Below the pieces are notes generated by a model. It was not told where the DNA came from, made no database searches, and saw only the letters and a list, made by a program, of their open reading frames with translations. A DNA stretch of 64,000 nt, taken from Emticicia sp. C21. GTDB taxonomy: Bacteria; Bacteroidota; Bacteroidia; Cytophagales; Spirosomataceae. Location of the stretch: contig NZ_QVMT01000002.1 of NCBI RefSeq assembly GCF_003418935.1, positions 372,001 through 436,000 on the forward strand. The letters are read 5' to 3'. The translations under genes were made by a program, and so were the position numbers. This document shows, piece after piece, positions 50,600 through 64,000 of the stretch (position 1 is its first letter; the number at the start of each line of letters is the position of its first letter).

Positions 50600-53062
50600 A
50601 TGAGACATTCAAAAGCAATGATAGCAGTTGCTCTGCTATTGGCATGCCAAACCTTAAAGGCACAAATCAAAACTTCTTACCGACAGATAAGCGGTATCTA
50701 TCCACACCTGGCCTATTACAATAACGAAGGCGAATGCGGTACTGGTGCAGTAGTGCCGTGGGCAGGTAAACTCTGGGTAATTTCTTATGGCCAACATTTT
50801 CCGTTTGGTTCCTCAGATAAATTGTATGAAATAAGCAATAACCTTGATCGCGTGGTGCGTCCTGAAAGCATCGGTGGTACACCCGAAAACCGCATGATTC
50901 ACAAAGAATCTAATCAGCTATTTATCGGGCCTTATGCCATTTCAAACAAAGGAAATGTGCGTACGATTCCTTATACAAAAATGCCGGGTCGACATACAGG
51001 TAATGCCCGTCACTTGTTCGACCCTGCCAATAAGATTTATTATGCTACCATGGAAGAGGGTTTTTATGAGGTAGATGTACATACCCTTGAGCCTAAAATG
51101 TTGTATAAAGACGGTAACGTTGACCGCAAAAAAGGCGAAATGGCTCAGGAAGCTCAACTATTGGTAGGCGCGCATGGCAAAGGTGTTTATTCTGGTCAGG
51201 GCGTAATGGTCTATTCGAATAATGGAGAAGCCAGCCAGTTAGCCATGAAACAATTTGATATTGAATCGGGGCTATTGGCTGAATGGAATGGAAAAGACTG
51301 GAAAAATGTTCGTCGTAACCAATTTGTAGAAGTAACCGGGCCGGGTGGAATTTATGGAAATGCTAACCCTGAAACTGACCCGATCTGGTCGACAGGTTGG
51401 GATCATAAATCTGTATTGGTAAGTGTGCGTGATGGTGGCAAATGGACATTCTTCCGCCTGCCTAAAGCCAGCCATAGCTACGATGGCGCACATGGATTTA
51501 ACACCGAATGGCCACGTATCAGAGATATCGGTACTCCCGAAAAACCTGATTATCTGATGACCATGCACGGCATGTTCTGGCGTTTCCCGAAAACCTTTAC
51601 TTCTAAAAATACAGCAGGTATTCGTCCACGTTCGGCTTATCTGAAAGTAATCGGTGATTATAGCCGTTGGCAGAATATGCTGGTATTAGGTTGTGATGAT
51701 TCAGCACAAAAAGAGTTTCTGAACAAACGCAGAGCCAAAGGAAACATCGAAGGCCCGGGACAATCAAACTCTAATTTATGGTTCACCTCAATCAATACAC
51801 CTGATTTACTAGGACCAAACACAGCACAAGGAGCAGTGTGGTTGAATGAAAAAGTTGCAGCCAATACCACGTCAGAGCCTTTCCTTTTTGCAGGTTGGAA
51901 AAAACGTATGGCATGGGTCAACAATGCCGGGAGCGAAGACGTCACCTTTAGCTTTGAAGTAGATGCCAATGGTACAAACATCTGGAAAACTTTACGTTCA
52001 GTATCAGTAAATGCAGGACAATCAGCTTCAATCACTTTTGCAGCTACCGAAGTAGGAGAGTGGATTCGTGTGAAAACCAATAAAGCTACTACGGCAACGG
52101 TCAACTTTAACTATACAGATGATAGCCGCTATACCCCTGCAATGGATAAAATGTTTACAGGATTAACTCCTGCCAATAGCACTAGCTACAAAGGAGGACT
52201 TTTATACGGCTTAGGTAATAACCGCCATAAATTAGGTGTACTAGCGGAAGATTTTTCTAATGGTAAATTCACAGAAACAGGCTATTATGAATTAGATAGC
52301 GCGATGAATCTGGTGAAAAAAGATGATTCTGAAACAGCTAAGTTTATCCGTGAAAAATTTGCCGTACCAAGTAATATCCTGACTATTGATGAGGCTTCTG
52401 TTCTGATCACAGACGATGCCGGAAGAAGATGGAGGCTACCTAAAGGCAATAATGCTTTAACCTCAAAAACCAATAGTGCATCTCTAAGAATTTGCAGAGA
52501 AGTAGCCACCGAGCGCGATTTAATGAACGCCCACGGCACCTTCTATGAATTGCCTGCTGAAAACGCAGATGGCTATGCTAAAATCAGACCGGTGGCTTCT
52601 CATACGTTAGCTATTCACGACTATGCTTCTTATCGTGGCTTATTAGTGATGACGGGTTTAAATAACCAGACTGCTGCCAGCGAACATATCATTACCTCAA
52701 CTGATGGCAAAGCCAAAATATGGGCAGGAACCATTGACGACCTCTGGAAGTTAGGCAAACCAGTCGGACAAGGCGGCCCGTGGAAAGATACCCAGGTAAC
52801 AGCCAATACTGCCTCTGACCCGTACCTGATTGGGTTTTATGACAAAAAGAGCTTAAAAATTTCTCATAAATCAAACCAACCCGTAACATTCAGAATTGAA
52901 GTAGAGTCAATCGGTCATGGCCCTTGGATGTTGTATAAAGAAGTAACAGTAAAGCCCAACGAAACATTCGAGCATACTTTCTCTGATTCGTTTCAGGCTC
53001 GCTGGATTCGCTTTGCCACAGACAAAGATTGCCAGGCTACTGCGTGGTTGACTTATAAGTAA
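50600..53062 (+). CDS. Unrecognised 820-residue secreted protein of the SusCD locus
   Basis: It has a signal peptide (to LKAQ) and then a mostly beta sequence with repeated short Trp/Gly-rich strands (AVVPWAGKLWVISYGQHFPFGSSDKLYEI, PENRMIHKESNQLFIGPY, MHGMFWRFPKTF), which looks like a beta-propeller. Two related modules of about 110 residues are visible, one near 395-510 and one at the C-terminus (about 700-820). Both run from a Trp-containing start through ANTxSxPxL to a beta-sandwich-like segment ending in WIR. I do not recognise the family, and no glycosidase, lyase or sulfatase motif could be picked out. Sitting 30 bases after susD, it is probably the locus's surface-exposed ligand-binding protein or enzyme. 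Confidence 0.75.
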   Translation: MRHSKAMIAVALLLACQTLKAQIKTSYRQISGIYPHLAYYNNEGECGTGAVVPWAGKLWVISYGQHFPFGSSDKLYEISNNLDRVVRPESIGGTPENRMIHKESNQLFIGPYAISNKGNVRTIPYTKMPGRHTGNARHLFDPANKIYYATMEEGFYEVDVHTLEPKMLYKDGNVDRKKGEMAQEAQLLVGAHGKGVYSGQGVMVYSNNGEASQLAMKQFDIESGLLAEWNGKDWKNVRRNQFVEVTGPGGIYGNANPETDPIWSTGWDHKSVLVSVRDGGKWTFFRLPKASHSYDGAHGFNTEWPRIRDIGTPEKPDYLMTMHGMFWRFPKTFTSKNTAGIRPRSAYLKVIGDYSRWQNMLVLGCDDSAQKEFLNKRRAKGNIEGPGQSNSNLWFTSINTPDLLGPNTAQGAVWLNEKVAANTTSEPFLFAGWKKRMAWVNNAGSEDVTFSFEVDANGTNIWKTLRSVSVNAGQSASITFAATEVGEWIRVKTNKATTATVNFNYTDDSRYTPAMDKMFTGLTPANSTSYKGGLLYGLGNNRHKLGVLAEDFSNGKFTETGYYELDSAMNLVKKDDSETAKFIREKFAVPSNILTIDEASVLITDDAGRRWRLPKGNNALTSKTNSASLRICREVATERDLMNAHGTFYELPAENADGYAKIRPVASHTLAIHDYASYRGLLVMTGLNNQTAASEHIITSTDGKAKIWAGTIDDLWKLGKPVGQGGPWKDTQVTANTASDPYLIGFYDKKSLKISHKSNQPVTFRIEVESIGHGPWMLYKEVTVKPNETFEHTFSDSFQARWIRFATDKDCQATAWLTYK

Positions 53063-53447: not shown

Positions 53448-54353
53448 ATGGAAAAAACAAACCCATCAAAAATACCCTTACTAAACCCTTCCCAGTTCGA
53501 TGATTATATCTTCGCCGACTGGAAACCCACGGTATCGGGTTTTTATGATAAGTTTCACATTGCGCGGGTAGAAACCTACAAAGACCACTTGCGTATTCCT
53601 ATGCAACCGCACCGCCGTTCGGTTTATTTCTTTGTATTCATTACCAAAGGTTCGGTTATCAGAAGCAAAGGTCTCTCTTTATATGAAATAAAATCCAATA
53701 ATTTTTTCTGTTTACCTTCCAATGTGATTACGTCAATAGAAAAAGCGGATGCAGATGCCGAAGGGTTTTATTGCCATTTTTCGCCTGACATTTTCAATCA
53801 ATCATTTATTAAGATTGATATTGCCAGAGATTTGCCCTTTTTTCAATTTACAGACGAACCTCTGATTTATGTACAGGAATCTGAACGCATTGTCAGCATT
53901 CTGGAAATCCTGGAGAAGGAATACCAGGTAGGTGACAATAAAAGGTTTGAAATGATTCCTATGTACCTGATGTCTCTTTTTTTGGAAATAAAGCATCTGG
54001 CGCAGCCTGCCTCTCAAAATGCCAAAAATGCAGCTACATTTATTACCCAACGTTACAAGAATGCCCTGTCAGAATTTATCTACGAGAAAAAGTCAGTACA
54101 GGAGTTTTCAGAGTACCTGGCTATCTCTCCCAATCATCTCCATAAATGTGTAAAAGCTACAATCGGCAAATCTGCACATGAACTATTAGAAGATATGCGT
54201 ATTCTGGAAGCCAAAGTATTACTAAAGCAAACTTCTATGAGCATTGGCGAAATTGCTTTTAAATTGGGTCGGTTCGACCCTAGTGATTTCAGCCGTTTCT
54301 TTAAATCCAAAACAAACCTTACTCCCCGAGAATACCGTCAATTAGAAAATTGA
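53448..54353 (+). CDS. AraC-family regulator of the hydroxycinnamate cluster
   Basis: A 301-residue regulator with an N-terminal cupin-like sensing part (MQPHRRSVYFFVFITKGSVI to about 190) and the AraC DNA-binding pair at the C-terminus (KSVQEFSEYLAISPNHLHKCVKATIGKSAHELLEDMRI, then MSIGEIAFKLGRFDPSDFSRFFKSKTNLTPREYRQL). It is the first gene of the plus-strand series that includes the crotonase and feruloyl-CoA synthase, so it is the likely activator. The effector is presumably an aromatic acid or its CoA ester, by inference from the neighbours. Confidence 0.85.
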   Translation: MEKTNPSKIPLLNPSQFDDYIFADWKPTVSGFYDKFHIARVETYKDHLRIPMQPHRRSVYFFVFITKGSVIRSKGLSLYEIKSNNFFCLPSNVITSIEKADADAEGFYCHFSPDIFNQSFIKIDIARDLPFFQFTDEPLIYVQESERIVSILEILEKEYQVGDNKRFEMIPMYLMSLFLEIKHLAQPASQNAKNAATFITQRYKNALSEFIYEKKSVQEFSEYLAISPNHLHKCVKATIGKSAHELLEDMRILEAKVLLKQTSMSIGEIAFKLGRFDPSDFSRFFKSKTNLTPREYRQLEN

Positions 54354-54460
54354 TTGATTTTGCATAGTATCAGTGAGTTATTGCCTATAATTTACGCACC
54401 TTATTTATTCAAATTTGTATGGTAAAATTCCGATATAAAATTGTATAAATAATAGATATT

Positions 54461-55255
54461 GTGTACAAGGAAATCTTTCACTCTTTTCTGCCCCAAACAT
54501 TACAAGTCGAGATTCAGGGAGACATCTTAATGGTAGGTCTAAACCGACCTGAAAAGCGAAATGCTTTCAACGATGAATTGATTCTGGCTATTGAGAAAGT
54601 ATTCGATAACCTGCCGCCATCCATCCGTTGCGTAGTCATTTATGGTATCGGCGACCACTTTTCTGCAGGACTTGATTTGTCAGAATTAAAAGAACGAAAT
54701 GCCGTTCAGGGTATTCATCATTCCCGAATGTGGCACAGAGCATTAGATAAAGTGCAGTTTGGTACTGCCCCTGTCATTGCCGTATTGCATGGCGCAGTAG
54801 TAGGTGGTGGATTAGAATTAGCAGCAGCCTGTCATATCCGGGTATCAGAACCAAGCACATTCTATGCATTGCCGGAAGGACAGCGGGGAATTTTTGTAGG
54901 AGGTGGCGCATCAGTCAGATTACCTAAACTGATAGGCATAGCCCGCATGACTGATATGATGATGACAGGCAGAGTCTACAAAGCCGAAGAAGGAGAACGA
55001 ATTGGTTTGGCACAATATCTTGTAGCACAGGGTGAGGGATTAACAAAAGGCAAAGAATTAGCTCAAAAAATAGCCAAAAATGCAGAAATGACAAACTACG
55101 CCCTGATGCACGTATTACCAAGAATAGCAGATTCTTCACAAACCGAAGGATTAATGCTTGAAAGCATGATGGCCGCAATTGCCCAAAGCTCGCCGGAAGC
55201 CAAGCAACGATTGAATGATTTTCTGGAGGGGAGAGCAAAAAAGATAGGCGAATAA
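54461..55255 (+). CDS. Enoyl-CoA hydratase/isomerase (crotonase) family protein
   Basis: A 264-residue crotonase starting at GTG. Oxyanion-hole segments are HFSAGLDL (66-73) and HGAVVGGGLELAAACHIRV (110-128); the acidic residue E139 in ALPEGQRGIFVGGGASVRL is in the catalytic region. The stop codon overlaps the ATG of feruloyl-CoA synthase by one base, so it should act on that enzyme's product, adding water to feruloyl- or coumaroyl-CoA. The LPEGQRG segment differs from the SEINWGIPPG type I recall for the Pseudomonas hydratase/lyase, so whether it also cleaves to an aldehyde is open. Confidence 0.85.
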   Translation: MYKEIFHSFLPQTLQVEIQGDILMVGLNRPEKRNAFNDELILAIEKVFDNLPPSIRCVVIYGIGDHFSAGLDLSELKERNAVQGIHHSRMWHRALDKVQFGTAPVIAVLHGAVVGGGLELAAACHIRVSEPSTFYALPEGQRGIFVGGGASVRLPKLIGIARMTDMMMTGRVYKAEEGERIGLAQYLVAQGEGLTKGKELAQKIAKNAEMTNYALMHVLPRIADSSQTEGLMLESMMAAIAQSSPEAKQRLNDFLEGRAKKIGE

Positions 55256-57057
55256 TGCAGGCAGGCTATAAAAATATCGCTTTCGGCCCGACCCGTACAC
55301 ATAAACTGGTACGGGAAAATGGTATTATTCATTTTCGCCTGGAACAAGACTTAGCACCAACACCAGAAAAACTAACGCAAAAGTTAATAGAGTGGGCCAA
55401 AAAAACGCCTGATAAAACTTTTCTGGCGCGTAGAGACAAAACAGATGAATGGCAAAAACTGTCTTATGCTGAAACACTAAGCAAGGTACAATCTATTGCT
55501 CAATACCTCCTGAACCTGAATTTCACGAGTGAGGAAACCATAGTTATTCTCTCAGAAAATAGCCTGGAGCATGCTTTACTGGCTTTAGCTGCTATACATA
55601 TCGGCATTCCCTACTCACCTATATCTCCCCCATATTCTTTGATTTCACAGGATTTTGGGAAATTAAAACATTGTCTGGAATTAATGACGCCCAAAGTCAT
55701 TTTTGCCCAAAATGGCAGGCAATATCAAAAGGCACTTGAATTAGCCGCAGGTTTATTTCCAAATGCTGAAATTATCACTGTTAATGATGGTAAAGGAATT
55801 GATTTTGCCCATTTATTGGCTACGGAACCAACACAGGAAGTAGAAGAGGCTTTTGCCAAAGTGAGTGGTGATACAGTAGCCAAAGTATTATTTACCTCAG
55901 GTTCCACAGGTTTGCCAAAGGGTGTCATTAATACCCAGCAAATGTGGTGTACCAATCTCCAACAGATTACTCAGGTTTTTCCGTTTATGTCGGCTACTCC
56001 ACCTGTATTTATAGACTGGCTACCCTGGAACCATACCTTTGGAGGCAATCATAACTTTGGTTTAGCGCTTTATAATGGAGGTATACTCTATATTGACGAT
56101 GGCAAACCAACTCCCCAGGGTATAGAAACAACGATTCAGAACCTGAGAGAAATCTCTCCAACAGCCTATTTTAATGTGCCTAAAGGGTTTGAAATGCTGA
56201 TACCTTATCTGGAAAAAGAACCGGATTTACGCCAGAATTTCTTCAAAAACCTGAACATGCTTTTTTATGCAGGAGCTAGTCTGGCACAACCTGTATGGAA
56301 TAGATTAGAAGAGTTGGCAGTAGAAACTATTGGAGAGAAGATACCTATTATTACAGGCTTAGGCTGTACCGAGTCTGGCCCATCGGCTATGTTTGCTAAT
56401 TGGGGAGGGGCTTTTTCCGGACTTCTGGGAGTGCCTGTAGCAGGAATGGATGTAAAAATTGTGCCTGATGGTGATAAACTGGAAGCTCGTTACAAAGCCC
56501 CGAATGTGATGCGTGGCTACTGGCGGAATGAAGAGGCAACCCTCAAAGCATTTGATGAAGAAGGCTATTATAAGACCGGAGATGCCGTAAAGTTTTTAGA
56601 TGAAAATTACCCGGATAAAGGGCTGGTATTTGATGGGCGAATAGCTGAGGATTTCAAACTATCAACAGGCACCTGGGTAAATGTGGGTGTGCTAAAAGCT
56701 AAATTGATTTCGGCAGGTTCGCCTATTATGCAGGATGTAGTGCTGGCAGGTTTAGACAAAGAATATGTCAGCGCTATTCTGTTTCTGAATGCGGAAGCTT
56801 GTAGAAAACATGCCGATTTATCAGCAGAAATTCATAATCGGGATGTTTTTCAGCATGAAGCCATTTCCGACTATTTGAATAATGTTTTAAACGAATTTAA
56901 TCAGTCAGCTACAGGTAGTGCCAATCGGGTAGAGAAAATTATAATAGCCCTAGACCCTCCCTCCATTGATTTGGGAGAAATTACCGATAAGGGCTCATTG
57001 AATCAGCGCATAGTGCTGAAACATAGGGCACATCTGGTAGAACAATTGTATCAGTAA
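55255..57057 (+). CDS. fcs: Feruloyl-CoA synthase (AMP-forming)
   Basis: A 600-residue ANL-superfamily ligase. It has the P-loop TSGSTGLPKG (214-223), IDWLPWNHTFGGNHNF (the Fcs-like acyl-pocket motif), the aromatic/adenine segment ITGLGCTESGP, the YKTGDAVKF motif, FDGRIAEDFKLSTGTWVN and a C-terminal EITDKGSLNQR whose Lys is the adenylating residue. The HTFGG block and the GEITDKG ending match feruloyl-CoA synthases rather than generic fatty acyl ligases. It activates ferulate, p-coumarate or related acids with ATP and CoA. Translation is coupled to the crotonase by a one-base overlap. Confidence 0.85.
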   Translation: MQAGYKNIAFGPTRTHKLVRENGIIHFRLEQDLAPTPEKLTQKLIEWAKKTPDKTFLARRDKTDEWQKLSYAETLSKVQSIAQYLLNLNFTSEETIVILSENSLEHALLALAAIHIGIPYSPISPPYSLISQDFGKLKHCLELMTPKVIFAQNGRQYQKALELAAGLFPNAEIITVNDGKGIDFAHLLATEPTQEVEEAFAKVSGDTVAKVLFTSGSTGLPKGVINTQQMWCTNLQQITQVFPFMSATPPVFIDWLPWNHTFGGNHNFGLALYNGGILYIDDGKPTPQGIETTIQNLREISPTAYFNVPKGFEMLIPYLEKEPDLRQNFFKNLNMLFYAGASLAQPVWNRLEELAVETIGEKIPIITGLGCTESGPSAMFANWGGAFSGLLGVPVAGMDVKIVPDGDKLEARYKAPNVMRGYWRNEEATLKAFDEEGYYKTGDAVKFLDENYPDKGLVFDGRIAEDFKLSTGTWVNVGVLKAKLISAGSPIMQDVVLAGLDKEYVSAILFLNAEACRKHADLSAEIHNRDVFQHEAISDYLNNVLNEFNQSATGSANRVEKIIIALDPPSIDLGEITDKGSLNQRIVLKHRAHLVEQLYQ

Positions 57058-57088
57058 ATATTCAACACGAACATAAAATATAATACTA

Positions 57089-58195
57089 ATGAACCCTCCT
57101 TTCAGAGCCGACCATGTAGGTAGTTTATTACGGACTCCTGCCGTTAAAGAAAATCGTTTAAGATGGAAAAAAGGTGAGATTTCTGCCGAAGAACTACGTG
57201 CTATTGAAGATGCTGCTATTCTGGAAACAGTAAAGAAACTGGAGTCAACAGGTATGAAATCAATCACAGATGGCGAGTTTCGCCGTGATTATTTCCACCT
57301 TGATTTCCTGAAAGAATTAGCAGGTGTTTCGGTAACTGGTGGAATAGAAGCAAATCCAAATGCTAAAGTGGCTGAAGACGGTTTCAAACCCCCGGTATTA
57401 AGTGTAACAGGTAAACTAAAACACGTAAAAGATATCCAGGTTGATGATTTTAATTATCTAAAATCAATTGTTACCCAAACGCCAAAGGTAACAATTCCAT
57501 CGCCTACCATGATTCATTTCAGAGGTGGTAGAAAATCAATAGATATTAATTCTTATCCTGATATGGATGAGTTTTTTCATGATTTATCAACAGCTTATCG
57601 TGAAGAAATTAACCATCTTTACAAAGCAGGATTACGCTATCTGCAATTAGATGATACGAATCTGGCTTACCTCTGCGACCCAAAAATGCGAGCTGCCGCT
57701 GCTGAAAGAGGAGAAGACCCGAATGCTTTGCCAAGAACTTATGCCGCTTTAATCAATTCAGTGATTGATGGCCGCCCGGAAGATTTAACTATTGGTATAC
57801 ACCTATGCCGTGGTAACTACCGTAGTACCTGGTTTGCCGAAGGAGGTTATGAGCCTGTGGCTGAAATTCTTTTCAACGAAATCAATGTAGATGCCTACTT
57901 CCTTGAATATGATGATGAGCGCAGTGGAGATTTTGCTCCTTTACGTTTCGTTCCTAAGAACAAAAACGTAGTTTTAGGTATTGTTTCGTCAAAGCAGAAA
58001 GAATTAGAGAATATCGATGATTTATGCAAGCGCATTGATGAAGCTGCCCGATATATGCCTTTAGAGAATATGTGCGTGAGTCCGCAATGCGGTTTTTCAT
58101 CTACCCATCACGGCAATGACATGACCCACGATGACCAATGGCGTAAAATTGAATTGGTAGTAAATACCGCCATTAAAGTTTGGGGAGAGTCGTGA
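57089..58195 (+). CDS. MetE-like cobalamin-independent methyltransferase
   Basis: A 368-residue protein equal to the C-terminal barrel of MetE, as in YxjG/YxjH-type proteins. It begins RADHVGSLLRTPAVKENR and carries TDGEFRRDYFHLDFL, YLQLDDTNLAYLCD, and the zinc ligands in IHLCRGNYRSTW (His, Cys), LEYDDERSG (Glu) and VSPQCGFSS (Cys). All four ligands are present, so it should activate a thiol as a methyl acceptor. It lies 31 bases after fcs and 150 bases before the first hydrolase. In a ferulate cluster it could receive methyl groups released by O-demethylation (indirectly through a folate), or it may be an unrelated methionine synthase. No demethylase is in the window. Confidence 0.82.
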   Translation: MNPPFRADHVGSLLRTPAVKENRLRWKKGEISAEELRAIEDAAILETVKKLESTGMKSITDGEFRRDYFHLDFLKELAGVSVTGGIEANPNAKVAEDGFKPPVLSVTGKLKHVKDIQVDDFNYLKSIVTQTPKVTIPSPTMIHFRGGRKSIDINSYPDMDEFFHDLSTAYREEINHLYKAGLRYLQLDDTNLAYLCDPKMRAAAAERGEDPNALPRTYAALINSVIDGRPEDLTIGIHLCRGNYRSTWFAEGGYEPVAEILFNEINVDAYFLEYDDERSGDFAPLRFVPKNKNVVLGIVSSKQKELENIDDLCKRIDEAARYMPLENMCVSPQCGFSSTHHGNDMTHDDQWRKIELVVNTAIKVWGES

Positions 58196-58230
58196 ATGCA
58201 GAGGGGTAAGGGCAGAGGGTGTCTAAAAAT

Positions 58231-58277
58231 TCCCCCTTTTCAAGGAGGGAGGCAAAATCCTGACGAAGTCGGATTTT
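58231..58277. repeat. Two adjacent imperfect hairpins
   Basis: TCCCCCTT/AAGGAGGGA (58231-58250) and AAAATCC/GGATTTT (58254-58277) lie in the spacer between the MetE-like gene and the esterase gene. Similar C/G-rich hairpins occur between genes of many Bacteroidota. A transcript-processing or stability role is possible. Confidence 0.35.
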
Positions 58278-58345
58278 GACGGGATGGTTTAAGACCTTTT
58301 AAGCTCTAAAATCTATATTATAACCAACATTATTCAACCAATCTC

Positions 58346-59281
58346 ATGAAAAAAATCCTCCTTCTTATGCTCATTTCAACGTTTGCATGGGCTCAATCAA
58401 AAGAGATAGATGCAGAAAAAACAGCCATTTCTTCATCGAAGTATTGGTTGGATATTGATTATGTAGGCGACAGAGCCATTGGGCATAAGCTGGATATTCA
58501 TCTACCTAAAAATGGAAAAGCTCCCTATCCCATCATTATCGCCATTTATGGCAGTGCCTGGTTTTCCAATTCATCGAAAGAAACAGTATTTACAGAAGGT
58601 TTAGGACAGAAATTACTGGAAAGTGGCTTTGCTGTAGTCAATGTCAACCATCGTTCGAGTGAAGATGCCAAATTTCCTGCCCAGATTCAGGACGTAAAGG
58701 CGGCTATTCGGTTCATAAGAGCCAACAGCGCAAAATTTTCTTTAGATAACTCTTTCATTGGCGTAACAGGCTGGTCTTCGGGTGGGCATTTGACGGCTTT
58801 GACAGGCACAACCAACGCTATCAAAACAGATAAAATTGGTGGTCTTGATATAGATATTGAGGGGAATTTGGGTAAGTATACTGACCAAAGCAGCAAAGTA
58901 AATGCTGTTGTAGATTGGTTCGGACCAACTGATTTTTTGATTATGGATCAATGTGGCAGTTCCTTTGCTCATAATGAAGCCAAATCTCCGGAATCTTCCT
59001 TAATTGGTGGAGCTATTCAGGAAAATCCCGCTAAAGTTGCCTTGGCCAATCCTATCAGCTATGTCAATAAAAACAACCCTCCATTCCTGATTTTTCATGG
59101 AGATAAAGACCCTTTAGTGCCCGATTGCCAAAGCAAAAAATTGTATGAAAAATTACAAAAAGAGGGGGTACCAAGTGAATTGGTCATTGTCGCCGGAGGT
59201 GGACACGGGCCAGGTGTGATGATTGATAAATACTACAACCAGATGCTAGCCTTTTTTGAGAAGGAGATGAAGAATAATTGA
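58346..59281 (+). CDS. Secreted feruloyl/acetyl-xylan esterase-like alpha/beta hydrolase
   Basis: A 311-residue protein with a signal peptide (to WAQ). It has an alpha/beta-hydrolase core with the nucleophile elbow G-W-S144-S-G-G, an acid residue in FHGDKDPLVPD and His in GGGHGPG. The oxyanion segment is IYGSAW rather than HGGGW, seen in the BD-FAE group of bifunctional feruloyl and acetyl-xylan esterases that this sequence resembles. It probably frees a hydroxycinnamate or acetate from a polysaccharide side chain in the periplasm. The next hydrolase starts 21 bases downstream. Confidence 0.78.
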   Translation: MKKILLLMLISTFAWAQSKEIDAEKTAISSSKYWLDIDYVGDRAIGHKLDIHLPKNGKAPYPIIIAIYGSAWFSNSSKETVFTEGLGQKLLESGFAVVNVNHRSSEDAKFPAQIQDVKAAIRFIRANSAKFSLDNSFIGVTGWSSGGHLTALTGTTNAIKTDKIGGLDIDIEGNLGKYTDQSSKVNAVVDWFGPTDFLIMDQCGSSFAHNEAKSPESSLIGGAIQENPAKVALANPISYVNKNNPPFLIFHGDKDPLVPDCQSKKLYEKLQKEGVPSELVIVAGGGHGPGVMIDKYYNQMLAFFEKEMKNN

Positions 59282-59302
59282 ACCTGTATAAACAAATTCA
59301 AT

Positions 59303-60418
59303 ATGAAAAATATCATTTTTCTGATTCTTTTCACAAGCATTGGAGCCTTAGGGCAAACTATCGTTAAGATTGATTCTGGTAGTATCAATGGGGCACGCTA
59401 TAGAATCCTGTTTCCACCTAATTGGCGATGGAAATTAGTGATGTATGCGCATGGATACGAATTTAATGGAAGCCCTTTGCAAAGTCAAAGTCCTCAGTTT
59501 CTCAAATCCATGAGTCCGTTTTTAGAAAGAGGTTTTGCCGTGGCAGCCTCTGACTATCAATTCCAGGGATTGGCTTTGGCGCAGGGAGTAGACGATACCG
59601 AAGCTTTGCGTAGATACTTTTTCGATAAATATGGCAAACCAGATTCTACTTTTATGGTAGGGGGCTCGATGGGCGGAGGGGTCACTTTAGCCATCATGGA
59701 AAATTACGATACCAATTATCAGGGAGCTTTGCCACTTTGTCCGCTTTCGAGTAGAATCTATCTGCAATGCCGCAAAGAGTTTGATATGTACGCTACTTTC
59801 AATGGCTTGTTTCCGGGGGTTGTTACGCCATTAAGTACTATATTTGATTTGAAAAGCCCTTATCAGGCACAGGATTCAAGAAAAATGATGGCTAAGGCCA
59901 TGGATATTAAAAAAGCTATTATGGCTAAAGATTCAGCCTTAGCACTCGCCTTTGCCAAACGCTTTGATTTGAAACTAGACGATTTGCCGTTCTCGCTGTT
60001 TTTCAATGAAAATGTATTAAGAGATATTGCACAAAAAGCCGGAGGAAACCCATTTGATAATACTAATACGGTTTATTCGGGCTTTCCTGATAATCTATTA
60101 GTAAACCAAAAAGCTGAGCGTTTGGCAGCAACAGTGAATCCTGATGTGGTTTTTAGTAAATACGACCGTTCGGGCAATATCAATAAGCCAGTATTATTAG
60201 TTCATACCATTTATGACCAGTTGATACCGCCTACTTATGGGGTGGTAAATTTTGAAAATATGGTTCATCAAAAAGGTAAAGACCAATACTTTACGGTAAA
60301 ATATACCAAAGGGCAGGGGCATTGTGCTTTCTCACCTCAACAAATAGCATTGGCCTTTGATGAGTTAAGAAACTGGACAAAAACCGGAGTAAAAGCTAAG
60401 GCTGGATTTATGGAGTAA
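59303..60418 (+). CDS. Secreted alpha/beta hydrolase, possible aromatic-ester esterase
   Basis: A 371-residue protein with a signal peptide (to ALGQ). The nucleophile elbow is G-G-S122-M-G-G-G; VLLVHTIYDQLIPP and GQGHCAFSPQ supply Asp and His. The AHGYEF segment is the oxyanion region. A cap-like insertion (about 140-270) follows the nucleophile strand and may define the substrate. No exact family was recognised. Position beside the feruloyl-esterase-like gene suggests a second ester specificity, for example a dimeric or smaller ester. The next gene follows 59 bases downstream. Confidence 0.72.
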   Translation: MKNIIFLILFTSIGALGQTIVKIDSGSINGARYRILFPPNWRWKLVMYAHGYEFNGSPLQSQSPQFLKSMSPFLERGFAVAASDYQFQGLALAQGVDDTEALRRYFFDKYGKPDSTFMVGGSMGGGVTLAIMENYDTNYQGALPLCPLSSRIYLQCRKEFDMYATFNGLFPGVVTPLSTIFDLKSPYQAQDSRKMMAKAMDIKKAIMAKDSALALAFAKRFDLKLDDLPFSLFFNENVLRDIAQKAGGNPFDNTNTVYSGFPDNLLVNQKAERLAATVNPDVVFSKYDRSGNINKPVLLVHTIYDQLIPPTYGVVNFENMVHQKGKDQYFTVKYTKGQGHCAFSPQQIALAFDELRNWTKTGVKAKAGFME

Positions 60419-60477
60419 GCGCTTGTTGTTTTACCACAGAGTTTTTTGAGAGTATCAAATTTAAGATTTTAAGAAGA

Positions 60478-61344
60478 ATGATTGATATCAACAAAATAGT
60501 AGCGATTGACGTACATACACATGCCGAGGTTTCTTGTCAGCAACCCCATGATGACTATCGGTCTGAATTTGATGTAGCATTTGCTAAATATTTTAAGTCT
60601 GACAAACGCCCGACCATTCAGGAAACAGCCGATTATTATCGTGAGATGAATATGGCATTTGTGATGTTTACTATCGATTCAGAATTTAATGTAGGCAAAA
60701 GGAGAATACCTAATAAAGAAGTAGCAGAGGGAGCCTTGAAAAACTCTGATGTCATGATTGCTTTTGCAAGTATTGACCCACATAAAGGAAGAATGGGTGC
60801 CAGAGAGGCCCGTGATTTGATTGAAAATTATGGGGTAAGAGGTTTCAAGTTTCATCCTACAGTGCAAGGATTTTATCCACAAGATAAAATGGCTTATCAT
60901 TTATATGAAGTCATTGCCGAATACAAATTACCTATGCTCTTCCATTCCGGTCATTCGGGTTTTGGCAGTGGCGTACGCGGGGGTGGCGGCTTGCGTTTGG
61001 AATATTCAAACCCGATGCATTTGGACGATGTAGCGATTGATTTTCCTGATTGTCCGATTATCATTGCACACCCAAGCTGGCCCTGGCAGGATGAAGCGCT
61101 CTCAGTAGCTATGCACAAACCTAATGTGTATATTGATTTGAGTGGCTGGTCGCCGAAGTATTTTCCGAAACAATTAGTTCAGTATGCCAATACCTTATTG
61201 AAAGACCGGATGCTGTTCGGAACAGACTTCCCGTTGATTACGCCGGAGCGCTGGATAAAAGATTTTGATGAAGCAGGTTTCAAACCGGAGGTAAAACCAT
61301 TAATTTTAAAGGAAAATGCAATCCGACTATTAGGATTGCAATAA
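60478..61344 (+). CDS. Amidohydrolase-superfamily (amidohydrolase_2) enzyme
   Basis: A 288-residue TIM-barrel metal enzyme without signal peptide. Metal and active-site positions are IDVHTHAE (residues 10-17, H-x-H), FKFHPTVQGF, MLFHSGHSGFG, IIIAHPSWPW, and LFGTDFPL. The layout fits the ACMSD / resorcylate-decarboxylase / 4-oxalomesaconate-hydratase branch, which acts on aromatic acids or their ring-cleavage products. In this cluster it could decarboxylate a benzoate derivative, or cleave a beta-keto thioester as the amidohydrolase of a Rhodococcus coumarate pathway is thought to do (from memory). Reaction unproven. Confidence 0.8.
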   Translation: MIDINKIVAIDVHTHAEVSCQQPHDDYRSEFDVAFAKYFKSDKRPTIQETADYYREMNMAFVMFTIDSEFNVGKRRIPNKEVAEGALKNSDVMIAFASIDPHKGRMGAREARDLIENYGVRGFKFHPTVQGFYPQDKMAYHLYEVIAEYKLPMLFHSGHSGFGSGVRGGGGLRLEYSNPMHLDDVAIDFPDCPIIIAHPSWPWQDEALSVAMHKPNVYIDLSGWSPKYFPKQLVQYANTLLKDRMLFGTDFPLITPERWIKDFDEAGFKPEVKPLILKENAIRLLGLQ

Positions 61345-61378
61345 AACATCTATTTGATACCTGATAATCATTCATCCT

Positions 61379-61909
61379 ATGAAAAAAGTTTGCCTTAGCC
61401 TTTCACTAATGCTCCTATGCATATTTAATAGTTACGCACAATCCACACCTGAAGCCCCTCAGTTAGAATTTGTCTGTGAATTAAAAGTGAAACTGAACCC
61501 TGCTATAGTGGTAGGAGAAACACCTCATGGTGTCCGCCGCATTATTCCTATTATTGGAGGTACGGTTGAAGGGCCGAATATTAAAGCCGAAATACTGAAT
61601 GGCGGTGCCGACTGGCAGGTAGTAAGAGCTGATGGTGTGGCAGAATTGGAGGCACACTACCAGATGAAAACCGAAGACGGAGTAATTATTTACATCAAGA
61701 ACACAGGCATTAGAGCCGCAACTCCCGAAGTCGCCGCGCGTATTGCCAAAGGCGAACAGGTAAATCAGTCAGAATATTATTTCAGAGCTATTCCAAAGTT
61801 TGAAGCGCCTAAAGGCAGTAAGTATGAATGGCTGAATAATGCCATCTTTATTTGCAAAGCTCAAAGAAATCCCGATAATGTAGCCATTCAGGTCTGGAAA
61901 GTGAAGTGA
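61379..61909 (+). CDS. Secreted DUF3237-family protein
   Basis: A 176-residue protein with a signal peptide (to SYAQ) followed by a DUF3237 beta-barrel-like domain: LEFVCELKVKLNPAIVVGETPHGVRRIIPIIGGTVEGPNIKAEILNGGADW in segments, then YQMKTEDGVIIYIKNTGIR and FRAIPKFEAP. Members often occur in aromatic-compound degradation clusters, but no activity is established. It lies 35 bases after the amidohydrolase and 32 bases before the transporter, so it is part of the run of genes. Confidence 0.8.
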   Translation: MKKVCLSLSLMLLCIFNSYAQSTPEAPQLEFVCELKVKLNPAIVVGETPHGVRRIIPIIGGTVEGPNIKAEILNGGADWQVVRADGVAELEAHYQMKTEDGVIIYIKNTGIRAATPEVAARIAKGEQVNQSEYYFRAIPKFEAPKGSKYEWLNNAIFICKAQRNPDNVAIQVWKVK

Positions 61910-61940
61910 GTATCTGTCAAACTATTCAACCGCTATAACT

Positions 61941-63239
61941 ATGCTATTCAATACTAAAAACCTAATTGATAACTCGCCAATATCTCGATTACAATATGCT
62001 ACATTGATCGTTTGTTTCTTCATGAACATGCTTGATGGCATGGATGTACTCGTTATCTCTTATGCAGCACCTGCTATATCTCAGAATTGGGGCGTAAGTC
62101 CACAAGCTTTGGGAGTTGTATTTAGTTCGGGCTTATTCGGTATGACATTCGGTGCTTTGTTTCTGGCACCCTTTGCAGACAGCATCGGTAGAAAAAACAT
62201 GATTTTACTAAGTGCGGCTTTGATGGGTACTACTGTTTATCTCACGTCTTTTGCCACGTCTATTTACTGGTTAGTTGCTGTAAGGTTTGTTAGTGGCCTG
62301 GGTGTGGGCAGCATGTTAGCAAGTACCGCGGCATTAGCAGCCGAGTATACCCCTCATAAAACCAAAGATTTCTGGGTAAGTTTTGTTATATCCGGCTATC
62401 CGGTAGGCGCGGTTTTGTCAGGTCTGGCATCAGGCAATATAATTGTGCGGGATGGCTGGCAGAGTATGTTTGAAATTGCAGGAATCATCACCATCATTTC
62501 ATTACCTGTTATCTACTTTTTTCTGACCGAATCTTTAGATTTCTATATTAAAAAACAACCACGCGACGCATTAGAAAAGATTAATATAATTCTGATAAAA
62601 ATGGGTTTTGAAGCTATTGAGAAGATTCCCTCCGAATCATCAGAAAAGAATAAGGGATCTATCCAATCATTATTCAATAAAGACTTCCGGACACCGACAT
62701 TGCAACTATGGATAGCTTTATTTTTTGCCTTTGCCACTTTGTATTTTCTCACCAGCTGGATACCCAAATTGGCTACCAATGCAGGTTTATCAATGAAGTT
62801 AGCCATTTATACAGGAACCGTATTTAATGCAGGAGCCTGGTTTGGTATCATGACACAAGGCTACTTTTCGAGTAAGTATGGTCTTAAAAAAACGATTGGC
62901 GTTATATTTATTCTGACGGCAGTCTTAATGGCTATCTTCAAAATGTTTATTGGCTCCGATGCTATTCTCTATGTATTTGGTTTGTTAGGTTTTGGTATAC
63001 AAGGGGGTTTTGTAGGCTTATATGCGGTAGCCGCCCGCATGTATCCTACCGAGTTTAGAACAACAGGTGTAGGTTGGGCCATTGGTGCCGGTAGGCTTGG
63101 GGGTATAATTGGTCCCGCCGTGGGTGGTATTCTCATTGGTATGGGCTTGTCTCTAAGTACTAACTTCCTGATTTATGCTATTCCGACTGTTTTGGCTGGA
63201 GTAATGACTTTGTTTATTTCTTCAAGAGAGGTGAGTTAA
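61941..63239 (+). CDS. MFS permease, aromatic acid:H+ symporter type
   Basis: A 432-residue major facilitator with 12 predicted membrane segments. The first helix has MLDGMDVLVISYAAPAI, matching the AAHS-family DGxD motif. The loop 2-3 signature is FADSIGRKNMI, and helix 4 has RFVSGLGVGSMLASTAALAAEY. A matching later-half segment is GVIFILTAVLMAIF. AAHS permeases (PcaK, VanK, FerC-like) import aromatic acids such as 4-hydroxybenzoate, vanillate or hydroxycinnamates with protons. It closes the plus-strand run; its stop codon overlaps that of the convergent AraC-type gene. Confidence 0.85.
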   Translation: MLFNTKNLIDNSPISRLQYATLIVCFFMNMLDGMDVLVISYAAPAISQNWGVSPQALGVVFSSGLFGMTFGALFLAPFADSIGRKNMILLSAALMGTTVYLTSFATSIYWLVAVRFVSGLGVGSMLASTAALAAEYTPHKTKDFWVSFVISGYPVGAVLSGLASGNIIVRDGWQSMFEIAGIITIISLPVIYFFLTESLDFYIKKQPRDALEKINIILIKMGFEAIEKIPSESSEKNKGSIQSLFNKDFRTPTLQLWIALFFAFATLYFLTSWIPKLATNAGLSMKLAIYTGTVFNAGAWFGIMTQGYFSSKYGLKKTIGVIFILTAVLMAIFKMFIGSDAILYVFGLLGFGIQGGFVGLYAVAARMYPTEFRTTGVGWAIGAGRLGGIIGPAVGGILIGMGLSLSTNFLIYAIPTVLAGVMTLFISSREVS

Positions 63240-64000
63240 TTCTTCCTGAAATCAGTAGGAGTTACACCTGTCTCTTTTTTAAATAAGCGAGTAAAATAAG
63301 CAGGGTCTTTGAAATTAAGAAAATAAGACACTTCTGAAACTGAATAGTTTGTATTCAACAGGTACTTCTTTGCTTCGTTAATCAAGTAATCATGTACGAT
63401 TGCTAAAGCTGATTTTTGTACTAATGCCTGACATATCCTATTAAGATGTACACTAGTAATATTTAATTCTTTAGCATACTGATTGATTGATTTTGTTTCG
63501 TGCAGGCTTTGTTTGATACTCTTCTGAAAGCTCTGAAAGTACTGTAAAGTTCGGTTGTCTGATTGAGCTATGGTTTGTTTTTGCAAAAGACTGAACCTGT
63601 ATAAATAAATAAAAAGTAGTTGAAAAAGTGAGGGTATTACGATTTGCTTTTCAAGATTATCATTATACAATTCGCGGATTATTTCATGGATATATTGTGC
63701 TATCTGCTTAAAGGCGGCGGTATGCTGTTCAAATAACAAAAGATTAAACCGATTAATGCCGAGTAATATTTTAGGCGTAGGCTTAAAAATATTTTCCAGA
63801 AAAGATTCTGAAAAAGTGATAACCTCACCATTGATATCAGGTTGAAAAATGAAGCCATGCAAAGAATTGGTCGGGATAGTAATAATACATGGCCCAACGA
63901 GTTTCAATTCTTTATTTTCAGAAATAATAATGCCCTCCCCTTTCTTAATAATAAATACCTGGAAAAGCTCGGTATGCAGATGCTCCTTTATTTCCCAGTC
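63236..64000 (-). CDS. PobR-like AraC-family regulator (partial, runs off right edge)
   Basis: The frame is open to the right end of the window. Beyond an internal TTG (63907) it continues upstream as a cupin-like segment with EHLHTELFQVFIIKKGEGII, so the N-terminus lies outside. The cupin is followed by LVGPCIITIPTNSLHGFIF, and the C-terminal AraC pair (NITSVHLNRICQALVQKSALAIVHDYLINEAKKYL, then SVSEVSYFLNFKDPAYFTRLFKKETGVTPTDFR). The H-x-H-x-x-LFQ and HGF pattern is that of the AraC-type PobR activators of 4-hydroxybenzoate hydroxylase. It probably responds to an aromatic acid; effector unknown. At least 254 residues are present. Confidence 0.82.
   Translation of the reverse strand, partial: DWEIKEHLHTELFQVFIIKKGEGIIISENKELKLVGPCIITIPTNSLHGFIFQPDINGEVITFSESFLENIFKPTPKILLGINRFNLLLFEQHTAAFKQIAQYIHEIIRELYNDNLEKQIVIPSLFQLLFIYLYRFSLLQKQTIAQSDNRTLQYFQSFQKSIKQSLHETKSINQYAKELNITSVHLNRICQALVQKSALAIVHDYLINEAKKYLLNTNYSVSEVSYFLNFKDPAYFTRLFKKETGVTPTDFRKN

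Follow-up and report, generated by a model that had tools for sequence, protein, structure and literature searches.

The removal of the hydroxycinnamate side chain by deacetylation is an already known pathway, with described systems in Agrobacterium fabrum and Rhodococcus jostii RHA1. In A. fabrum the route uses, in order, a synthase, a hydratase, a dehydrogenase, a keto-cleaving enzyme and, last, a vanillate demethylase that depends on folate, and the SpG8-1b cluster (Atu1415-1422) encodes the four side-chain steps followed by O-demethylation and protocatechuate metabolism (excerpt of PMC7797058). In the actinobacterium RHA1, the last deacetylation step of the cou system is carried out by CouO, an amidohydrolase-superfamily enzyme that gives the aromatic acid (excerpt of PMC4737184). 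Here we analyse a 64,000-nt stretch of the genome of Emticicia sp. C21 (the window; G000:C12:372001-436000 in a 6.64-Mb genome of 33 contigs), which ends in a cluster of ten genes that is probably a hydroxycinnamate catabolic unit of one family of Bacteroidota; the genes, their order, their conservation and the conserved residues are observed, whilst every reaction assigned to them is a prediction.

The cluster would share the four side-chain steps with A. fabrum and the amidohydrolase type of the last step with RHA1. It differs in its proposed demethylase, which in A. fabrum is folate-dependent and 56% identical to Sphingobium homologues and here would be a MetE-like protein; a MetE-like gene is not mentioned for the A. 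fabrum cluster in the available excerpt of PMC7797058. It differs too in its regulators, which are HcaR (MarR) and Atu1419 (GntR) in A. fabrum (same excerpt), the MarR repressor CouR in RHA1 and AraC-type proteins here; the cluster has no MarR-type repressor, a regulator that is not essential to the chemistry. With the Pseudomonas-type Fcs/Ech route the cluster shares the step of CoA ligation, but no match to the Ech-type family PRK09120 was listed for its crotonase and no aldehyde dehydrogenase is found among the cluster genes of the window. Amongst the literature matches listed (open-licence papers only) there was no report of hydroxycinnamate deacetylation together with pob-pca genes in Bacteroidota. 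The cluster gives this family a predicted path by which plant hydroxycinnamates would enter central metabolism.

Predicted side-chain degradation and the adjoining pobA-pca operon

Just beyond the window end, and divergent from the PobR-like regulator that closes the cluster, lies the operon pcaH-pcaG-pcaB-pcaDC-pobA-pcaIJ-pcaF, in which pcaD-pcaC and pcaI-pcaJ are fusions. Six of its seven gene products pass a curated NCBIfam cut-off: PcaH with 347 bits (cut-off 296), PcaB with 370 (356), PcaDC with 478 (390), PcaF with 611 (597), PcaIJ through its PcaI and PcaJ domains, and PobA, which scores 552 bits to PRK08243 (4-hydroxybenzoate 3-monooxygenase; cut-off 351) and 494 bits, below the cut-off of 539, to the stricter TIGR02360. 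PcaG (174 aa) gave no family match among those listed from Pfam and NCBIfam, and it is named by its position and a motif. The predicted pathway from 4-hydroxybenzoate through protocatechuate to beta-ketoadipate adjoins the cluster, and because this operon stands just outside the window, the case for hydroxycinnamate catabolism is stronger than could be known to an earlier, sequence-only reading of the window, which had proposed it. The proposal is supported further by the recurrence of the gene set in related loci and by the presence of a ligase-crotonase-short-chain dehydrogenase/reductase (SDR)-amidohydrolase set in Proteobacteria.

That earlier reading had suggested a search for the gene set in relatives and a comparison of gene order. 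At E <= 1e-50, 27 of 118 relatives gave a match to the hydroxycinnamate:CoA ligase, and neighbourhoods of up to 20 kb were compared for 25 of these genomes, leaving aside the window's own and G004 (a 4-kb contig), with genes grouped by clustering of their open reading frames (ORFs). The set is conserved in these 25 loci and its order is freely reshuffled: besides the ligase (25), the loci hold the crotonase (24), the amidohydrolase (23), the second hydrolase (22), the MetE-like gene (20), the AAHS permease (19), the SDR (14), DUF3237 (14, with two more fused to another hydrolase), the first and second AraC genes (13 and 10) and the BD-FAE esterase (6). The permease is at least 57% identical in 14 of its 19 loci and just 35-41% identical in the remaining five. 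The slowest changing of the cluster genes are those of the MetE-like protein (83-97% identity in its 20 loci) and the amidohydrolase (80-98%), with the ligase at 50-90% over all 25. It was also observed that in G276 (L199) the cluster has decayed, with the MetE-like gene in two overlapping frames, the ligase and amidohydrolase reduced to fragments and the second hydrolase still open.

In the proposed scheme, secreted esterases would hydrolyse plant esters of p-coumarate, ferulate or caffeate, and the AAHS permease would take up the freed acids. The ligase would then form the CoA thioester, the crotonase would hydrate it, an SDR would oxidize the beta-hydroxyl and the amidohydrolase would cleave the beta-keto thioester to acetyl-CoA and the free benzoate, leaving PobA and the pca enzymes to convey 4-hydroxybenzoate or protocatechuate to central metabolism. 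The ligase is 41.5-46.9% identical to nine listed plasmid proteins annotated as feruloyl-CoA synthase. In the related Pip pathway, fatty acids too have been reported as enzyme substrates (excerpt of PMC12753220), and the cluster could in principle serve fatty acids or other aryl-propenoates beside an incidental pca neighbour; we regard this as highly improbable, given that several genera have pob or pca genes adjoining the cluster and that the permease belongs to an aromatic acid family.

PRK09120, the hydratase/lyase family of the vanillin route, was neither in the best 25 of 72 families nor in the best 25 of 33 for the crotonase, whilst a genuine hydratase/lyase used as a positive control (in L155) scored 459 bits to PRK09120, with a cut-off of 276. 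The crotonase fits the PRK08150 subfamily and may be a separate hydratase, lyase activity being still compatible with its sequence. Its best match in the Protein Data Bank (PDB) is 3hin, which we take to be R. palustris RPA1786. That link favours the classic retro-aldol route, in which the crotonase would be a hydratase/lyase yielding an aldehyde and acetyl-CoA, since RPA1786, a hydratase, has been assigned such a cleavage; knock-down of RPA1786 had little or no effect on growth (excerpt of PMC12366328). The retro-aldol route is nonetheless unlikely here, because the crotonase fits PRK08150, the window's cluster holds no aldehyde dehydrogenase for the expected product, and the conserved amidohydrolase and SDR would be left idle. 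A classic hydratase/lyase was accordingly disfavoured for the crotonase, and beta-oxidative deacetylation of the kind known from RHA1 and A. fabrum is probably the route, this being the best reading of a crotonase of another subfamily together with an amidohydrolase that resembles the CouO kind.

Evidence on the amidohydrolase comes from its relatives. On Terrarubrum, Rhizobium Q54 and Paraburkholderia plasmids, genes for proteins 59-66% identical to it are neighbours of a feruloyl-CoA synthase gene, and the Rhizobium Q54 copy (59%), which is annotated as a 4-hydroxyphenyl-beta-ketoacyl-CoA hydrolase, lies near a ligase, a hydratase, a dehydrogenase and an acyl-CoA dehydrogenase. Further relatives on plasmids of P. 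putida YC-AE1 (L063, 72.5%) and R. leguminosarum (L067, 61%) are found with biotin-carboxylase-type genes, a HAD hydrolase and an acetoacetate-CoA ligase, a context that we read, in the light of work on acetovanillone, as a pathway of acetophenone carboxylation. An aroylacetyl-CoA would be formed in either context, which suggests one aroylacetyl-CoA hydrolase family common to ferulate and acetophenone pathways. By homology to the annotated Rhizobium protein, the amidohydrolase is proposed to be a CouO-type aroylacetyl-CoA hydrolase.

Several points weigh against the hydroxycinnamate reading. The ligase (PRK12582) and the permease (TIGR00895) both fall short of their subfamily cut-offs. There is no hydroxyacyl-CoA dehydrogenase in the window's cluster: the SDR, which directly follows the ligase in 13 of the 14 related loci that have it, is represented in this genome by a 64% identical protein on another contig (L086:6949-7716), flanked by unrelated genes, and the dehydrogenase is thus unlinked to the cluster.

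The MetE-like protein and its proposed role in ring demethylation

For methoxylated substrates a ring demethylation would be needed. No VanA-type and no second GcvT/LigM-type protein was found in the genome, and the MetE-like protein is proposed to fill this slot. In a search that did not extend to P450 demethylases, the genome gave no match to PF00848, to PF19112 or to the VanA of the relative G029, and its only GCV_T protein (a 399-aa frame) is taken as the glycine-cleavage T protein. VanAB and LigM have the same proposed place, between side-chain removal and protocatechuate ring cleavage, but are a Rieske oxygenase and a folate-dependent enzyme, whereas the barrel of the MetE-like protein is that of a methionine synthase, zinc ligands included. 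To our knowledge, the enzymes known to remove lignin methoxyl groups are Rieske, P450, folate and corrinoid enzymes. The MetE-like protein would, if the proposal is true, be a candidate for a further chemistry of this removal, and O-demethylation is often a bottleneck of lignin conversion (excerpt of PMC6021390). No report of a MetE-like aryl demethylase was present among the literature matches listed.

The protein (368 aa) consists of the catalytic barrel alone (Meth_synt_2), and the N-terminal folate-binding barrel of MetE is not present by Pfam. Using the residue list for E. coli MetE (excerpt of PMC7857596), placed by alignment and for E273 by motif, it was found that the zinc ligands H238, C240, E273 and C334 and the homocysteine residues S12, E63 and D188 are invariant in alignments of 19 and 29 rows; in a larger alignment the zinc ligands and D188 occur in 80/80 rows, and S12 and E63 in all 79 rows covering them. 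The structure model (mean predicted local distance difference test score, pLDDT, 87.5) has Listeria 1ypx and MetE structures as its best matches. Fold, zinc ligands and homocysteine residues are therefore held in common with MetE and the core methionine synthases MesA-MesD, from which the protein differs in its subfamily (PRK06520) and its aromatic gene context. In the proposed reaction, zinc would activate a thiol (homocysteine, judging by the conserved site), which would accept the methyl group of vanillate or of a feruloyl intermediate.

Co-inheritance was followed in 222 genomes of the family, from 36 genera. The ligase is present in 52 genomes (14 genera) and the MetE-like gene in 55 (12 genera); 50 genomes have both, two (G029 and G053) the ligase only and five the MetE-like gene only (Fisher p 2.5e-41, with shared ancestry ignored). 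In G053, of the whole set, the crotonase and ligase alone were seen. G029 has vanA and vanB (by Pfam) beside an IclR gene and a pob-pca operon, and this IclR shares 73% identity with its counterpart encoded divergently from the MetE-like gene in G032 (69% in G024 and 71% in L128). When the VanA of G029 was used as a query against the 222 genomes (1e-20), three matched, namely G029 itself and, at 30-31% identity, G004 and G005, so that no other genome of the 222 has a VanA above 31% identity to that of this ligase-bearing genome without a MetE-like gene. With the VanA_C model of Pfam, 10 of the 118 relatives pass the cut-off, G029 with 163 bits and nine others with 24-61 bits. The nine are taken as other Rieske oxygenases, because the two found by the VanA query are only 30-31% identical and the one in G003 has a ketoacyl-synthase-like gene as its neighbour (L112, by eye), yet they could be demethylases of another kind, like DmtS.

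The gene context was inspected in all five genomes with a MetE-like gene and no ligase, of which one is G276 with its decayed cluster. In G530 the gene and the pcaF end of a complete pcaHG-B-DC-pobA-IJ-F operon face each other, about 10 bp or less apart. Malonate-type genes accompany it in G012 and G047, together with a P450 gene and one for an AAHS permease, and pcaHGB lies about 17 kb away; in G497 the contig, apparently the same as that of L128, ends at the MetE-like gene, with IclR, SDR, DUF3237 and second hydrolase genes nearby. As a separate observation, in two ligase-less genomes (L105, L106, L200 and L201) P450, ferredoxin reductase and aldehyde dehydrogenase genes, and in L105 also one for a MEDS/BTAD-domain protein, stand between the MetE-like gene and pcaHGB, and this group is possibly another demethylation system.

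A wider scan with the MetE-like alignment found at least 560 relatives, reduced to the best 80 by MetE-like similarity alone (16 Bacteroidota and 64 other loci). The ligase or amidohydrolase occurs in 15 of the 16 Bacteroidota loci. Core aromatic markers (ligase, amidohydrolase, VanA, VanB, PcaH, FerA-type ligase or hydratase/lyase) occur in 19 of the 64 others, 17 of them within 5 kb: VanA in 10, less than 200 bp away in eight of these, and the ligase or amidohydrolase in 10. In a Chloroflexi metagenome-assembled genome the MetE-like gene (72% identity) follows pcaH-pcaG. In Sphingomonas panni it is divergent from an adjacent aromatic permease gene, and the cluster there also holds an NDP-forming-acyl-CoA-synthetase-like ligase and a PRK09120 hydratase/lyase, a different ferulate route; in Pantoea, VanB-family, ring-hydroxylating-oxygenase and gallate genes lie nearby. 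Plasmid relatives in Klebsiella and Roseinatronobacter have no clear aromatic context, and those in Sphingobium SYK-6 (L178) and Phytohalomonas (L131) no aromatic neighbours. In the tree the aromatic contexts are spread over several separate clades. The occurrence of the MetE-like gene thus tends to track the metabolism of methoxylated aromatics, irrespective of how the side chain is removed. Within this family it accompanies the protocatechuate genes, and it swaps with vanAB beside one regulator. That it is a chance neighbour was rejected on its co-inheritance, its contexts outside Bacteroidota and its adjacency to pca in G530.

Tentatively, and as a serious possibility rather than the expected outcome, we propose that the MetE-like protein is a zinc-thiolate aryl O-demethylase working without oxygen, corrinoid or folate, which would be standard in the hydroxycinnamate/protocatechuate clusters of the family and perhaps in Chloroflexota, with vanAB in its place in one lineage. 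Methyl removal with homocysteine or another thiol as acceptor would be the simplest account of its distribution. A number of observations count against this proposal. One methionine for each ferulate would far exceed need, and the reaction would call for some recycling or for a different methyl acceptor. The co-occurrence test takes no account of shared ancestry, and weak VanA_C proteins are found in five of the 25 genomes, among the 118 relatives, in which the ligase and the MetE-like gene occur together (G003, G004, G007, G009 and G040). Outside Bacteroidota, 45 of the 64 loci, some on short contigs, have no core marker; canonical metE (L168, L170) or metH (L160, L163) lies near in four, and some relatives are accompanied by methionine synthesis genes alone. 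The gene has vanA as a neighbour in Hydrogenophaga and Sphingomonas, which shows that it does not simply substitute for vanA. DmtS, a 27% homologue of VanA, is a demethylase by genetic evidence (excerpt of PMC8091115).

Some of these observations would also suit an accessory role, as a methionine synthase independent of folate or as an enzyme of C1 salvage. The protein would then not attack the aryl ether itself but would use methyl groups released by another, unrecognized demethylase. The fold and homocysteine site shared with the core methionine synthases (excerpt of PMC7857596) favour such a role, as do the loci near canonical metE or metH, the coexistence with vanA in Proteobacteria and the weak Rieske VanA_C proteins of some relatives. 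It is somewhat less likely than direct O-demethylation: the genome already encodes a full-length MetE of 771 aa and, with no VanA-type protein and a single GCV_T protein found, offers no evident methyl source. Furthermore, VanAB releases formaldehyde, which is not a methyl donor.

Gene inventory and neighbouring loci

All ten genes (Table 1) are intact ORFs in the order and place given by the sequence-only reading, and their family matches, with scores far above chance in all cases but one, agree with the AraC regulator, crotonase, feruloyl-CoA synthase, MetE-like enzyme, two hydrolases, amidohydrolase, DUF3237 protein, AAHS permease and PobR-like regulator that it had named. From the crotonase to the permease, adjacent genes overlap by 1 bp or are spaced by 21-150 bp. 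The minus-strand AraC gene is truncated by the window end and encodes 290 aa in the genome.

Table 1. Genes of the cluster, with window positions and supporting matches
Gene product	Position	Strand	Support
AraC-family regulator, probable regulator of the cluster	53448-54353	+	HTH_18 71 bits; orthologue in 13/25 related loci
Crotonase, predicted hydroxycinnamoyl-CoA hydratase (putative CouM/Atu1417-type role)	54461-55255	+	NCBIfam PRK08150 400 bits, cut-off 232
Hydroxycinnamate:CoA ligase (feruloyl-CoA synthase subfamily)	55255-57057	+	PRK12582 753 bits, slightly below cut-off 777
MetE-like protein (core methionine synthase fold), proposed methoxy-aromatic O-demethylase	57089-58195	+	PRK06520 467 bits, cut-off 313
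BD-FAE-type carbohydrate/hydroxycinnamoyl esterase, secreted	58346-59281	+	PF20434 268 bits; signal peptide by eye
Second alpha/beta (serine) hydrolase, probable hydroxycinnamoyl esterase	59303-60418	+	Weak family matches; signal peptide by eye
Amidohydrolase, proposed CouO-type aroylacetyl-CoA hydrolase	60478-61344	+	Amidohydro_2 168 bits
DUF3237 protein	61379-61909	+	PF11578 173 bits; PDB 3g7g, 3c5o (RPA1785); putative signal peptide by eye
AAHS aromatic acid permease	61941-63239	+	TIGR00895 358 bits, below cut-off 419
AraC-family PobR-like regulator of the pob-pca operon	63236-64108 (window part 63236-64000)	-	HTH_18 69 bits; start L008:14108

A SusC/SusD pair, its SusC with an STN domain, does precede the cluster on the same strand, as the sequence-only reading had noted. 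That reading joined the two into one system of glycan-style import and aromatic catabolism, and such a combined system for feruloylated arabinoxylan would be in keeping with the adjacency, with the BD-FAE esterase in the cluster and with the retention of the arrangement in the close relative G001 (L038). It is very unlikely, however, because orthologues of SusC, SusD and the 820-aa protein that follows them adjoin the cluster (within a view reaching 9 kb upstream from the ligase) in only this one of the 25 related loci, a more distant SusC homologue being found in four others. In G008, which is also closely related, the cluster is complete, yet the 9 kb + 13 kb upstream hold no such Sus locus. 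In the window, the Sus locus is separated from the cluster by 385 bp and by the cluster's own AraC gene, and genes resembling a sigma factor and FecR of its own sit upstream of it (by eye). As a system part SusC/SusD was rejected on this lack of conserved linkage, and the pair is a chance neighbour. From the earlier interpretation hydroxycinnamate catabolism is retained and the glycan link is not; the beta-oxidative logic and the significance of the MetE-like gene had not been drawn out there. The 820-aa protein itself (50600-53062) has no Pfam or NCBIfam match and is 94% conserved in one relative (L038).

The BD-FAE esterase has PDB matches to 6mly, 6tkx and 6xyc. The second hydrolase scores 32 bits to Peptidase_S9 and, weakly, 22.6 bits to the tannase-like DUF6351 (cut-off 22.4), and its residues S122, D305 and H340 are invariant. 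Its model (mean pLDDT 77) gave general alpha/beta-hydrolase matches only, with feruloyl esterases among them and poor superposition, and was not used to assign specificity. In two relatives, for example at L054:11769-13103, DUF3237 forms one protein with a part that by eye resembles a hydrolase, and its match RPA1785 (PDB 3c5o) is numbered next to RPA1786 in R. palustris. Malonate transporter genes and a malonyl-CoA-synthase-like ligase recur in or beside hydroxycinnamate or MetE-like clusters (L048, L051, L058, L059, L062 and L105-L107; MadM in L105 scores 357 bits to TIGR00808), and these malonate genes may be connected with the clusters through malonyl esters of plant phenolics.

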